This document shows, in pieces, positions 40,427-45,503 of a DNA stretch of 64,000 nucleotides (position 1 is the first letter of the stretch; each line of letters starts with the position of its first letter). Made by a program: the position numbers and the translations under genes. Below the pieces are notes generated by a model. The model searched no databases and had not been told where the DNA came from. It worked only from the letters and a program-made list of their open reading frames with translations. Origin of the DNA: Marinospirillum alkaliphilum DSM 21637 (GTDB lineage Bacteria > Pseudomonadota > Gammaproteobacteria > Pseudomonadales > Halomonadaceae); the NCBI RefSeq assembly GCF_900119735.1, contig NZ_FPJW01000002.1, forward strand, positions 124,001 through 188,000, written 5' to 3'.

Positions 40427-41299
40427 TCAGGCTGTTTTTTCTTTACGGGCCTGTTCCTTGAAGCGGGCAGGTTCCAGCGCGTGTTTGTTGAGCAGTTTGT
40501 AAAAGTCGGTGCGGTTGCGTCCGGCCAGTTTGGCTGCTTCAGTCACCTTGCCTTCAGCCAGTCGCAGCACTTTAATGAGATAAGCCTTTTCAAATTCTGC
40601 ACGGGCTTCGTTCAGCGGTGGCAGGCCCTGTTCACCATTTTGCAGGATGCTTTGCACCAGTTCAGCGGAGATCAGTGGTTGATCACTCATTTCTGCACAC
40701 TGTTCAATAACCCCCTGCAACTGACGCACACTGCCCGGCCAGGGGGTGGCGGCCAGCACTTCCAGCGCTTCCGGTGCAAATCCGGTGACCTTGCTATCCA
40801 GCTTTTCACTGGCCTGGGTCAGTAACTGGCGTGCCATCAGCTGTACCAGCAGGGGACTGCGCTCCAGCAGATCAGCATTGCTGCCTTCGTCAGTTTTTTC
40901 ACTGCGGCTGACTTTCAGTTCTTCTATCAAGGCAAACAGCTGCTGTTTGTCGACCGGTTTGGTGAGAAAGCCGGAAACCCCCTGACGGGTGGCTTCCACT
41001 GCATCGGGAATGGTGCCGTGAGCGGTCAGAATGATCACCGGCAAGCCGGGGTGCAGTTGCTGTATTTCGTCAAACAGGGTCAGGCCATCCATGCCATCCA
41101 TGCGCAGGTCAGACAACACCAGGTCGGGCAGATAGTGTTTCAGGTGCTCCAGTGCCTCAGCACCACTTTCGGCGGTGACCACCTCATGACCGGCGGTTTC
41201 CAGTCGCAGGGACAACAGCTTCAACAGGCTCAGGTCATCATCCACCAGCAGGATGCGGGCGGGATGTTCGCTGGGTCGGATTTCCGGTATCAGTTTCAT
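40427..41299 (-). CDS. glrR: GlrR-like response regulator lacking the AAA+ ATPase core
   Basis: A 290-residue protein that aligns with GlrR (about 440 residues) except for one internal gap. Residues 1-130 are the receiver (phosphoacceptor Asp64, Thr92, Lys114). Residues ~145-157 (LLERSPLLVQLMA) match the start of the AAA+ region, and ~158-205 (RQLLTQASEK to ATPWPGSVRQLQGVIEQC) match its very end. Walker A, GAFTGA, Walker B and sensor segments, roughly 155 residues, are absent. Residues 230-283 (EARAEFEKAYLIKVL to AGRNRTDFYKLLNKH) are the intact Fis-type DNA-binding domain. The frame is open and the flanks are well conserved, so a functional sigma54-independent regulator is more likely than a dead gene. 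It is last in the argA-glrK-qseG-glrR run. Confidence 0.9.
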   Translation of the reverse strand: MKLIPEIRPSEHPARILLVDDDLSLLKLLSLRLETAGHEVVTAESGAEALEHLKHYLPDLVLSDLRMDGMDGLTLFDEIQQLHPGLPVIILTAHGTIPDAVEATRQGVSGFLTKPVDKQQLFALIEELKVSRSEKTDEGSNADLLERSPLLVQLMARQLLTQASEKLDSKVTGFAPEALEVLAATPWPGSVRQLQGVIEQCAEMSDQPLISAELVQSILQNGEQGLPPLNEARAEFEKAYLIKVLRLAEGKVTEAAKLAGRNRTDFYKLLNKHALEPARFKEQARKEKTA

Positions 41300-41301
41300 T
41301 T

Positions 41302-41601
41302 TCAGTCACTCTGACGTTGCATGCGTTCGTGCAGGCTGCGTTCAATGGCAGTCAGGGCTTCCAGCTTGGCTTCAAGATCCGCTTTTTCCGTTTCCAGTTG
41401 GCGAATGCGTTGTTCAGCCTGGCTCAGTTCCGCTTCCAGTGTTTCCATGCCCTGCTCCAGATGCAGGATGCGCTCAGCCGTTTGAGGCTGGTTACTGGTT
41501 GCTTCACCCTGAGGATCTTCCGGTTGCAGCACTGCACAGCCTGCCAGCAGTGTAGTCAGGATCAGCGGGATAAAAAAATGTTGGTATCTGGACACAGTCA
41601 A
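41302..41601 (-). CDS. Short QseG-like lipoprotein
   Basis: A 99-residue lipoprotein: lipobox LLAGC with the acylated Cys at residue 22, followed by a coiled coil (ERILHLEQGMETLEAELSQA onward). Its position between glrK and glrR is that of qseG, whose outer-membrane product contacts GlrK in E. coli, but this one is less than half the usual length. It is 16 bp after glrK and 2 bp before glrR. Confidence 0.75.
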   Translation of the reverse strand: MTVSRYQHFFIPLILTTLLAGCAVLQPEDPQGEATSNQPQTAERILHLEQGMETLEAELSQAEQRIRQLETEKADLEAKLEALTAIERSLHERMQRQSD

Positions 41602-41617: not shown

Positions 41618-43021
41618 TCAGCGACTTGCCAGTGGCCATTCTAGCCGAAAGATGATGCGGTTGTTTTCGCTGCTGATGAGTTTTAATGTGCCGTTTTGTG
41701 CTTTCATGCAATCGGCTGCAATGGAAAGCCCCAGACCAGACCCCTTGACCGGACCGCTGCGGCGACTGCTGCCCTGAAAAAAGGGTTCAAACAGGCGCTG
41801 CTGCTCATCCTTCGGGATAGGCCCGCCGGCATTCTCCACTTCCACCCACTGTTGTTGATGGTCCTGGCCGGCGCGGATGAGCAGTGGTTGGTCAGGCGCA
41901 CCATAATGCAGTGCATTGGACAGCAGATTATCCAGGCAGGTGCGTAACAGCGATGAATCACCCTGCAAGATCAGCCCTGCATCCGGCAGTTGCACGGACT
42001 GCTGGCGCTGAGCCAGTAGCGGCTGCCAGGGGGCCAGCAGTTTGTTCAGCAGCGGCCGCAGGGGAACTTCGGTATAGGTGGCCTGTTTTTTTCCCTGCAG
42101 CAGGTTGTAATCCAGCAGTTGTTCGATGAGTTGTTGCAGGCGCTCACTATTTTGTTGCAACAGGCCGGTCACTTCTTTCTGAGCGGGTGTCAACTGGCCC
42201 AGCAGCTCTTCATGCAGCAGATCACCCGCCTCGCGAATACTGGCCAGGGGGGTTTTTAATTCATGCGAGATATGGCGCAGGAATTGTTGTTTTTGCTGTT
42301 CGATGTCATTCAGCTGCTGCTCCAGCCAGTTCAGTTGCCGGTTCAGCATCACCAGCTCTGCAGGGCCGCTGGTGATCTGGCGTTGTCGGCGTGTTTTGCC
42401 TGGTGTGGCCAGTGAGCGGATGCGTTGTTGTAGCTCACCGATCGGACGCAGCAGACGCCAGGTGAAAAACAGTACCAGCAGCAGTGACAAGCCTGCCAGT
42501 AATAAAAACTGCCAGGCCAGTTTTTTCTGCAAGCGGTGCATTTCCTGCTGCAGGGCATTCAGGCGCTGATCCACGATGCGCTGGGTCTGGCCGGTCATGT
42601 CCATGGTCAGGCGGGTCAGTTGTTCCAGGCGTTCGGGGCTGAGCAGGGTTTGCCCGGCATCCGTCAGCAGCAATTCTTCGAGGCTGTGCTGGGCTGCCGG
42701 TGGTGGAAACAGCACAAAAGGTTGCTCCAGCAGCTGTTGGAAGCGCTGCTGTTGACTGTTGAGCAGTTCCAGCAGATCAGGGTTTTCCACCACCTGAAAC
42801 TGGCGACTGGTGCGCTCCATGTCCAGTGCCAGGGTTGCCAGTGACTGGGAGCGACGGGTGAAGGATACAGCCTCGCGAGCCGTCAGACTGGCCTGGGTGG
42901 ACAGTTCGCGGTAGGTGCTGGAGGTTTCAAACACCAGCACACCCAGCGGCAGGATCACCAGCACAAAACCCAGCAGCACCAACTGCATCAGGGTCAGGTT
43001 GGCTGTTCGTAACAGAGCCAT
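41618..43021 (-). CDS. glrK: Sensor histidine kinase GlrK (QseE)
   Basis: A 467-residue kinase with transmembrane helix 1 (LMQLVLLGFVLVILPLGVLV), a helical periplasmic domain, transmembrane helix 2 (FLLLAGLSLLLVLFF), HAMP, H-box LRHISHELKTPLASIREAGD, N-box NLLSNALHYG and G boxes ENAGGPIP and GSGLGLSIA. Together with the flanking lipoprotein and regulator genes this identifies GlrK, which in enterobacteria responds to envelope cues and drives the sRNA gene glmY. No glmY-like gene was seen here. The start is 12 bp after argA. Confidence 0.9.
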   Translation of the reverse strand: MALLRTANLTLMQLVLLGFVLVILPLGVLVFETSSTYRELSTQASLTAREAVSFTRRSQSLATLALDMERTSRQFQVVENPDLLELLNSQQQRFQQLLEQPFVLFPPPAAQHSLEELLLTDAGQTLLSPERLEQLTRLTMDMTGQTQRIVDQRLNALQQEMHRLQKKLAWQFLLLAGLSLLLVLFFTWRLLRPIGELQQRIRSLATPGKTRRQRQITSGPAELVMLNRQLNWLEQQLNDIEQQKQQFLRHISHELKTPLASIREAGDLLHEELLGQLTPAQKEVTGLLQQNSERLQQLIEQLLDYNLLQGKKQATYTEVPLRPLLNKLLAPWQPLLAQRQQSVQLPDAGLILQGDSSLLRTCLDNLLSNALHYGAPDQPLLIRAGQDHQQQWVEVENAGGPIPKDEQQRLFEPFFQGSSRRSGPVKGSGLGLSIAADCMKAQNGTLKLISSENNRIIFRLEWPLASR

Positions 43022-43033
43022 GAACTGGGAACC

Positions 43034-44362
43034 TCAGATGTTTTTACAGAAAACCCGCGAGTTACGCTGCCAGTTGTAGAGTGCCTGACGGGCTGCGGGT
43101 AAGTGTTCCACCCTGGCCGGCACAAACCCCCGCTCCAGAAACCAGTGGGCGGTGTGGGTGGTCAGTACAAATAACTGATGAATGCCTGCCGCCTGCGCCT
43201 GCTTCTGGATGCTGTCCAGCAATTGGTCGCCGCGCTGACCGTGGCGATAATCAGGGTCCACCACCACACAGGCCAGTTCTGCCTGACGCTGATCCGGGTA
43301 GGGATAAAGGGCAGCACAACCAATGATGGCACCGTCCAGATCAATCACCGTGAAGCGTTCGATTTCAGCTTCCAGCAGTTCACGGGAGCGGCGTACCAGC
43401 ACCCCGGTTTCTTCCAGCGGGCGTAATAAAGCCAGCAGCCCTGCAACATCCTCAATGCGTGCCTGCCGCAGGGTTTCATAACGCTGCTGGGTGATCATGG
43501 TGCCATCACCCTCGCGGGTGAACAGGTCCTGCAGCAGTGCACCATTGCGCCGATAGCTGAGCAGGTGGGCGCGCGCCACACCGCGACGGCAGGCCTGGCA
43601 GGCGGCTTGCAGATGACGTTGCAGGGTGGGTTGCTGCTGCAGTTGTGGCAGCAGCAGCTCGGCATCCCTGGGTGTCAGATCACGAATCAGGCGGCCACTT
43701 TCATCCTTCAGGCCCTCTTCATCACCCAGCAACAGCAGTTTTTCCGCACCCAGATGAATGGCAGCGGCGGTAGCCACTTCTTCAGCATCCAGATCAAAGG
43801 CTTCTCCGGTGGCGGAGTAACCCAGCGGGGGCAAGAGTACCATGCTGCCCTGGTCCAGCAGTGCCTGAATGCTTTTCACCTGAATGCGGCGCACCTCACC
43901 GGAAAAGTGCATGTCCACGCCGTCGCGGATACCCAGCGGGCGGGCAGTGATCAGATTGCCACTCATCACGCGCAGCCCGGCACCATGCATCGGTGAATTG
44001 GCCAGCCCCATTGAAAGCCGGGCTTCCAGCTCAATGCGCAAGGTGCCAATGCAGGCGGTCAGTGCCTCCAGGCGCTCTGCATCCACCAGTAAGCGGCCCT
44101 GGTGTTCATGCCAGTCCAGCCCGCGACGCTGCAACTCCTGCTGCATCTGCGGGCGGGCACCAAAGGTGATCACCAGTCGCACACCCAGCGAGTTCAGCAA
44201 TGCCAGATCGGCAATCAACTCATGCAGACCATCACAGCGTAACGCTTCGCCATCCAGATGAATGACAAAGGTGCGGCCGCGATGGGCATTAATGTAGGGC
44301 GAGGTGTGGCGAAACCAGTTTACAAAAGGCTCCGCATTGGAATCCTGCAAGATATCGCTCAC
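43034..44362 (-). CDS. argA: Amino-acid N-acetyltransferase (N-acetylglutamate synthase)
   Basis: First enzyme of arginine synthesis: acetylates glutamate with acetyl-CoA and is feedback-inhibited by arginine. The 442-residue protein has an amino-acid-kinase domain (from FVIHLDGEALRCDGLHELIADLALLNSLGVRLVITFG; regulatory) and a C-terminal GNAT domain (IIGCAALYPYPDQRQAELACVVVDPDYRHGQRGDQLL). The length is normal. It leads a tight minus-strand run with glrK, an unusual neighbour for argA. Confidence 0.96.
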   Translation of the reverse strand: MSDILQDSNAEPFVNWFRHTSPYINAHRGRTFVIHLDGEALRCDGLHELIADLALLNSLGVRLVITFGARPQMQQELQRRGLDWHEHQGRLLVDAERLEALTACIGTLRIELEARLSMGLANSPMHGAGLRVMSGNLITARPLGIRDGVDMHFSGEVRRIQVKSIQALLDQGSMVLLPPLGYSATGEAFDLDAEEVATAAAIHLGAEKLLLLGDEEGLKDESGRLIRDLTPRDAELLLPQLQQQPTLQRHLQAACQACRRGVARAHLLSYRRNGALLQDLFTREGDGTMITQQRYETLRQARIEDVAGLLALLRPLEETGVLVRRSRELLEAEIERFTVIDLDGAIIGCAALYPYPDQRQAELACVVVDPDYRHGQRGDQLLDSIQKQAQAAGIHQLFVLTTHTAHWFLERGFVPARVEHLPAARQALYNWQRNSRVFCKNI

Positions 44363-44507: not shown

Positions 44508-45503
44508 ATGTCGCGTTACCATGATAAGGCTTACAAAGAACTGTTCAGCTACCCTGAGTTTGTACAGCAGTTGATGGAAGGGTTTGCGCCGCCGGAAATC
44601 AGTTGCAGGCTGGATTTTTCGACACTGGAAAATCTGCCGGGAAACTACATCACACCCCTGATGGATGAAAGATTCGAAGACGTGGTCTGGTCTGTGCAAT
44701 TCAAGCCGGAAGTGGGAGAGCAAACACCTGCTACGCTGTACCTGTGCATCCTGCTGGAGTTTCAATCCAGCATTGACCGCACCATGCCCTTGCGGATGCT
44801 GCACTATGTTGCAGCCTTTTATCATCAGCTGTTAAAACATAAAAGGGCCAGCTTGAAGGAAGGCTTGCCACTGGTTTTTCCTGTCGTGCTTTACAATGGC
44901 AGCAGACCATGGAATGCAGCAGAGGAAATGCAAACACTACTGCAGCCGGTGCCTGCTTATCTGAAATCCTATCAGCCGCAGTTGCGTTATTACCTTGTGG
45001 ATGAGAGTCGTTATACCACGGAAGAGCTGGAGCAGCGCAATACGCCTTTGAGCAGTCTGTTCACCATTGAAAACTCCCACAGCCCGGAAGCTTTGCAACA
45101 ATCAGTGCAGCGACTGGTCTCAGTATTGCAACAACACCCCGACAAACAGCGACTGGACAAGCTCTTGTTGCGCTGGTTCAAGCAGCATTTGCACAACCGC
45201 AAAGTCAGGGTTAACCTTGAACCATTAACCAGCCTGATGGAGGCACCGGATATGCTGGCAGAAAATCTGGAAAGAATGGTCAAAGAGTGGAAACAGAAAG
45301 GTTATGAGCAAGGCATGGCAGAAGGCATTGCTGAAGGCGTCGAAAAGGGCATCGAGCAGGGCATCGAAAAAGGCATCGCAACAGCCCGCACCCAGATGGC
45401 TTCAAGACTGCTGCAGCGTGGCCTGAGTGATGCTGAAGTGGCGGAACTGCTGGAGCTGGACTTGCAGCAGGTCCAGACCATCAAGGCACAGCAGCTTCAC
45501 TGA
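44508..45503 (+). CDS. Rpn-family PD-(D/E)XK nuclease / putative transposase
   Basis: A 331-residue protein of the Rpn (recombination-promoting nuclease, YhgA-like) family, opening MSRYHDKAYKELFSYPEFVQ. Candidate catalytic residues are Asp58 in FEDVVWSVQF and Glu84-x-Gln86 in ILLEFQSS. The C-terminus carries four-residue Gly repeats (EGIAEGVEKGIEQGIEKGIA) and a helical end. Rpn proteins stimulate recA-independent recombination and some act in phage defence, with toxicity curbed by a small protein made from an internal start; a matching internal start is present at 45252. AAGGAGG precedes the ATG. No insertion-sequence ends are visible. Confidence 0.88.
   Translation: MSRYHDKAYKELFSYPEFVQQLMEGFAPPEISCRLDFSTLENLPGNYITPLMDERFEDVVWSVQFKPEVGEQTPATLYLCILLEFQSSIDRTMPLRMLHYVAAFYHQLLKHKRASLKEGLPLVFPVVLYNGSRPWNAAEEMQTLLQPVPAYLKSYQPQLRYYLVDESRYTTEELEQRNTPLSSLFTIENSHSPEALQQSVQRLVSVLQQHPDKQRLDKLLLRWFKQHLHNRKVRVNLEPLTSLMEAPDMLAENLERMVKEWKQKGYEQGMAEGIAEGVEKGIEQGIEKGIATARTQMASRLLQRGLSDAEVAELLELDLQQVQTIKAQQLH
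45252..45503 (+). CDS. Candidate intragenic small protein (RpnS-like) inside the Rpn gene
   Basis: An in-frame ATG at codon 249 of the Rpn gene is preceded by GGAGG (45239-45243) with an 8-base spacer, ideal for initiation. The product would be the last 83 residues, beginning MLAENLERMVKEW and containing the Gly repeats and C-terminal helix. Intragenic C-terminal antitoxins are documented for E. coli Rpn genes; here it is inferred from the ribosome site. Confidence 0.5.
   Translation: MLAENLERMVKEWKQKGYEQGMAEGIAEGVEKGIEQGIEKGIATARTQMASRLLQRGLSDAEVAELLELDLQQVQTIKAQQLH

Follow-up and report, generated by a model that had tools for sequence, protein, structure and literature searches.

Activators of sigma54 promoters are defined by their ATPase motor, and the exceptions found in the literature have lost only the sigma54-contact loop. 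The glrR (qseF) gene of Marinospirillum alkaliphilum DSM 21637, located in the 64,000-nucleotide stretch analysed here (contig NZ_FPJW01000002.1, positions 124,001–188,000; hereafter the window), encodes a GlrR protein lacking this motor. This raises the question of whether the gene is an artefact, a relic or a regulator with an altered mode of action.

Architecture of the core-less GlrR and its locus

The open reading frame encodes a GlrR/QseF orthologue without the AAA+ core. Pfam searches identified Response_reg (residues 16–125), AAA_lid_14 (residues 152–225; 52 bits against a cut-off of 27) and HTH_8 (residues 233–268), while Sigma54_activat, representing the AAA+ core, is absent from the matches. 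Among the hallmarks of bacterial enhancer-binding proteins, the core with Walker A, Walker B and GAFTGA is missing and the lid is present. The best NCBIfam model is GlrR (NF011695) with 311 bits, below its cut-off of 763, as expected since the AAA+ core is missing. Assignment to GlrR is based on this best family, the adjoining glrK and lipoprotein gene in the qseG position, the receiver residues and the Fis-type HTH. The acidic pocket D20–D22, phospho-acceptor position D64, T92 and K114, as well as the HTH segment RNRT-FYKLL, are invariant among 37 GlrR sequences.

A preliminary description of the locus had placed the gene and its reading frame correctly (Table 1), and the in-frame loss of the AAA+ core that it proposed is borne out by the missing Sigma54_activat match and the gap in the alignment. 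The deletion, beginning after ERSPLL/RSPLLVQ, is larger than the 155 or so residues estimated there, comprising about 170 residues relative to Halomonadaceae GlrR and 165 relative to that of M. celere. Likewise, the WPGSVRQLQ tail is present as described, but it is not all that is left of the module, since the entire lid subdomain is kept.

In the predicted structure (mean pLDDT 75.8) the receiver is complete and the lid helices (residues 149–167, 176–184, 191–204, and 212–221) and HTH are folded; the first of these, one continuous predicted helix, crosses the deletion junction. The pTM of 0.53 means that the relative placement of the domains in this model is not reliable. The best structural match is the crystal structure of Brucella NtrX (5m7n), which, however, keeps its AAA+ domain, and the two superpose poorly over the whole length (TM 0.40 by query). 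Encoding of the AAA+ core elsewhere was rejected: the genome contains no second GlrR-like protein, and its other activators, of which seven of nine were read, are distinct proteins.

Table 1. Coordinates of the core-less glrR, its domains and neighbouring features in the window, with examples of the ncRNA locus in Halomonadaceae (locus coordinates).
Feature	Coordinates	Strand	Evidence or remark
AAA+ core-less glrR/qseF, 290 aa	40427..41299	(-)	ORF, translation, Pfam/NCBIfam domains; architecture common to four other Marinospirillum assemblies
Receiver domain, residues 13–128	40916..41263	(-)	Pfam Response_reg; full alpha/beta fold in structure model
Deletion junction, residues 150–156 (LLVQLMA), first AAA+ helix joined to first lid helix	40832..40852	(-)	Alignment gap; predicted continuous helix
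Retained AAA+ lid subdomain, residues 152–225, with WPGSVRQL	40625..40846	(-)	Pfam AAA_lid_14; model helices
Fis-type DNA-binding domain, residues 226–284, recognition segment RNRTDFYKLL	40448..40624	(-)	Pfam HTH_8
Short lipoprotein in qseG position, 99 aa, LLAGC lipobox, coiled coil	41302..41601	(-)	Position and lipobox
glrK/qseE sensor kinase	41618..43021	(-)	Pfam HisKA and HATPase_c intact; orthologues in five other Marinospirillum
argA–glrK junction, 12 bp	43022..43033	(.)	In most Halomonadaceae about 0.5–1 kb with sigma54 promoter and ncRNA gene here
argA, N-acetylglutamate synthase	43034..44362	(-)	ORF; argA–glrK order common to other Marinospirillum and many Halomonadaceae
ncRNA in argA–glrK interval, Halomonadaceae examples	L079 7049–7790; L089 6978–7867; L113 7108–7892

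The neighbours had been described as intact. This holds for glrK, with both of its kinase domains; the lipoprotein gene has been kept, though in a shortened form. In the window it gives only weak matches (QseG NF007997, E = 0.017; YfhG lipoprotein, E = 0.029), and in Marinospirillum its product comprises 99–111 residues versus 176–191 in three Halomonadaceae, the 99 residues of the window protein being about half the length seen there. argA is likely in one operon with glrK. Directly upstream of argA the window carries an ORF resembling Rpn-family transposases (44508–45503, named by eye from the sequence), in place of which other Marinospirillum have pit and DUF47.

Distribution and age of the deletion

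A search of relatives, proposed in the preliminary description, revealed the same gap in four other assemblies: M. minutulum, M. insulare, a Marinospirillum MAG and a MAG labelled Pseudomonadaceae. Their proteins are 72–75% identical to that of the window and have the identical junction, so that five of the eight Marinospirillum species, including the window species, carry the deletion. A junction common to five assemblies is due neither to chance nor to misassembly, and the probability of an assembly or sequencing artefact is negligible given this sharing between separately assembled, diverged genomes.

In 275 genomes of the family, matches spanning the whole core-less protein were found, among those listed, only in Marinospirillum. 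At the level of the class (369 genomes) the matches listed included no AAA+-less GlrR other than that of the window genome; weaker cases could be missed in this sample. In the GlrK tree the five species with core-less GlrR group together, and M. celere is sister to this clade (99/98), a topology that fits a single deletion.

Selection on the truncated gene

The core-less GlrR is under strong purifying selection, with omega values of 0.02–0.05. The G002/G007 pair differs by dN 0.027 at dS 1.47; omega is 0.034–0.047 for the other measurable pairs, among them M. minutulum/G002 (0.045) and M. minutulum/M. insulare (0.035). All these values refer to the four other core-less species, dS being saturated for the window species. 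Together with the invariant receiver and HTH residues they confirm that the remaining parts of the protein are well conserved, as previously noted.

A relic, in which loss of the ATPase followed that of the ncRNA target and the remainder is slowly decaying, would agree with the shortened lipoprotein and with loss of the whole cassette in one Marinospirillum. Such a fate is very improbable in view of the omega values, the absence of in-frame stops in glrR of all five species and the invariance of the receiver catalytic residues. The other objection that had been foreseen, a full-length GlrR in close relatives together with decay here, does not apply either: the truncated genes are free of decay, and the M. 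celere copy has itself lost GAFTGA.

GlrR of M. celere and loss of the cassette

The GlrR of M. celere is full-length (455 aa), but alignment revealed deletion of GAFTGA. Its Walker B motif is altered from LFLDEIGD to LYLEDLDC, and YYRL is changed to YYLI with loss of the arginine. Compared with Halomonadaceae GlrR, its core is 44% identical, the receiver 70% and the HTH 67%; among Halomonadaceae themselves the core is 87% identical and thus conserved to the same degree as the HTH. Judging from these sequence changes, the M. celere protein is likely an intermediate state. The loss of GAFTGA may go back to an ancestor of the core-less clade, or it may be confined to M. celere.

Another Marinospirillum, G001, has no glrK, qseG or glrR after argA. 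In the argA tree it is sister to M. celere (96/99); the position of the window species is not resolved there. Neither glrK nor glrR was found in G003, the assembly of which is only 77% complete. The glrK-qseG-glrR cassette is dispensable within the genus, with real loss of the whole of it in one species.

The sigma54 promoter and ncRNA gene beside glrK

In E. coli, QseF binds upstream activating sequences (TGTN12ACA) and activates the sigma54 promoters of glmY and rpoE, glmY being located just upstream of qseEGF (PMC6075780). The argA–glrK interval of Halomonadaceae is mostly 0.5–1 kb long. Among 72 loci in which GlrR is intact, most from Halomonadaceae and some from Rahnella, a sigma54 promoter match upstream of glrK was obtained for 71, versus 9% of shuffled sequences, and in many, not all, of these loci it is preceded by GlrR-type sites. 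In Halomonadaceae the promoter is followed by a conserved ncRNA of about 450 nt. This has hairpins of the GGCAAGGATGCC type, its conserved 3' part reads ACCCTTCAGTTCCCTGCGTA, and it carries a Rho-independent terminator; the 3' part CTTCAGTTCCCTGCGTA was found in 65 of the 72 loci. This ncRNA matches no Rfam family. It parallels GlmY of Enterobacteria in position, and in Rahnella GlmY itself occupies this position.

In a comparison of 58 genomes the ncRNA motif occurs in 21 genomes outside Marinospirillum, every one of which belongs to the family and has a GlrR match, and in none of the GlrR-negative family members; G019 is the sole GlrR-positive member outside Marinospirillum without it. GlrR probably drives this ncRNA in Halomonadaceae via the sigma54 promoter. 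Additional copies of the ncRNA 3' part with terminators are located elsewhere in three Halomonadaceae genomes, G020, G029 and G025 (loci L187, L188, L189, and L190), and those of L187 and L189 have sigma54-like sites 176–177 bases upstream. Together, the copies possibly represent a GlmY/GlmZ-like pair.

In none of the eight Marinospirillum genomes was the ncRNA motif detected in a genome-wide search. In all six GlrR loci of the genus, including that of M. celere, hardly any sequence separates argA from glrK, and the 1.6 kb preceding glrK gave no sigma54 promoter match. Sigma54 itself remains, as the window genome contains rpoN, and GAFTGA is intact in at least seven of its other activators. 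Both the probable target of sigma54 and the machinery that activates it have thus been lost.

Proposed mechanism and search for targets

The most probable explanation, at roughly 70%, is that the sigma54 machine of GlrR was lost stepwise in Marinospirillum, with retention of signal input and DNA binding, leaving a regulator of sigma70 promoters. It is based on the architecture, conservation and selection described above, on the M. celere intermediate and on the absence of the ncRNA locus. Reading the order of events from the three present-day states, the sigma54-controlled ncRNA gene beside glrK would have been lost first. Relaxed constraint on the ATPase would then have allowed the loss of GAFTGA, the state of M. 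celere, and a single in-frame event would finally have removed about 170 residues of the AAA+ core, fusing the first AAA+ helix with the first helix of the lid. That natural, stepwise loss of the motor once the ncRNA target had disappeared turned an activator of sigma54 promoters into an ATPase-independent two-component regulator of sigma70 promoters, with disappearance of the target, a crippled intermediate and a clean deletion all visible within one genus, stands at about even odds.

The resulting protein should still receive phosphate from GlrK at D64 and use its Fis-type HTH to bind palindromic DNA. It can neither form an ATPase ring nor open sigma54 complexes, and most likely controls sigma70 promoters depending on phosphorylation. 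With input and DNA binding kept and the motor gone, such a phosphorylation-dependent regulator is the best reading. The conversion to an ATPase-less, sigma54-independent regulator suggested in the preliminary description is supported to this extent; the sign of its action and the promoters are what we infer.

Repression is slightly favoured over activation, because it needs no contact with the polymerase. Direct activation of sigma70 promoters, as by NtrC of Rhodobacter capsulatus, would be a sub-case of the stepwise loss with the opposite sign. It is a tentative possibility: activation of sigma70 promoters has been reported for NtrC proteins without GAFTGA (PMC10274813) and the M. celere GlrR is in a comparable state, but no surface for contact with RNA polymerase can be named from sequence and no target promoter was found.

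A genome-wide search showed no enrichment of TGTC-N10-GACA sites in Marinospirillum, their counts being lower than those of the reversed-pattern control, and no regulon was recovered from them. A single GlrR-like site, TGTTAAAANNNTGTGACA, is conserved in Marinospirillum; it lies upstream of DUF47-pit-argA and precedes a TATAAT box (L074 ~4900, L077 ~4870, L078 ~4030, and G001:C18:204440–204457). Its role as an autoregulatory site of GlrR before DUF47-pit-argA-glrK was rejected: it is kept also in G001, which has no glrKR, and therefore belongs to another regulator or to a -35 region.

The lack of a conserved target site would suit a core-less GlrR that serves as a phosphate sink or signalling partner of GlrK, its HTH being a remnant without action on DNA. 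VspR, which also lacks GAFTGA, needs no phosphorylation and senses phosphate through the conserved aspartate (PMC10274813). This role is improbable, since the HTH is among the best-kept parts of the protein: it is 84% identical between the truncated forms and M. celere GlrR, its dN in the G002/G007 pair is 0.014 (receiver, 0.008), and the recognition segment is invariant.

Relation to known regulators and implications

Response regulators of the RegA/PrrA/ActR type, a separate family, consist of a receiver and a Fis-type HTH without an ATPase, and have no AAA+ lid between the two. The window GlrR has a similar layout, attained here by deletion from a sigma54 activator. Membership in that family was rejected: the corresponding model (NF033791) scores 70.8 bits against a cut-off of 250 and covers residues 16–143 only, compared with the higher score of the GlrR model.

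The GlrR/QseF of Enterobacteriaceae, on the other hand, has an orthologous receiver and HTH, an adjoining cognate kinase and the same kinase-lipoprotein-regulator order. The window locus differs from it in the absence of the AAA+ core, of the sigma54 promoter and of an sRNA gene beside the operon, and in its short lipoprotein. NtrC of R. capsulatus and Caulobacter and VspR of V. cholerae are devoid of the sigma54-contact loop and control sigma70 promoters (PMC10274813). The GlrR of M. celere matches this state, with the AAA+ domain kept and the L1 loop lost; unlike these proteins, the window GlrR has lost the whole core and only the lid is left. No precedent for a sigma54 activator with loss of the whole AAA+ core was found in the titles and abstracts retrieved from the open-access literature.

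The comparison has also exposed a GlrR-linked ncRNA of Halomonadaceae in a GlmY-like position. In Marinospirillum the motor was removed and the regulator nevertheless kept under selection, with a crippled relative and the loss of the likely ncRNA target still visible. The intact, GAFTGA-less and core-less forms of GlrR make this change in the mechanism of a transcription factor directly testable.
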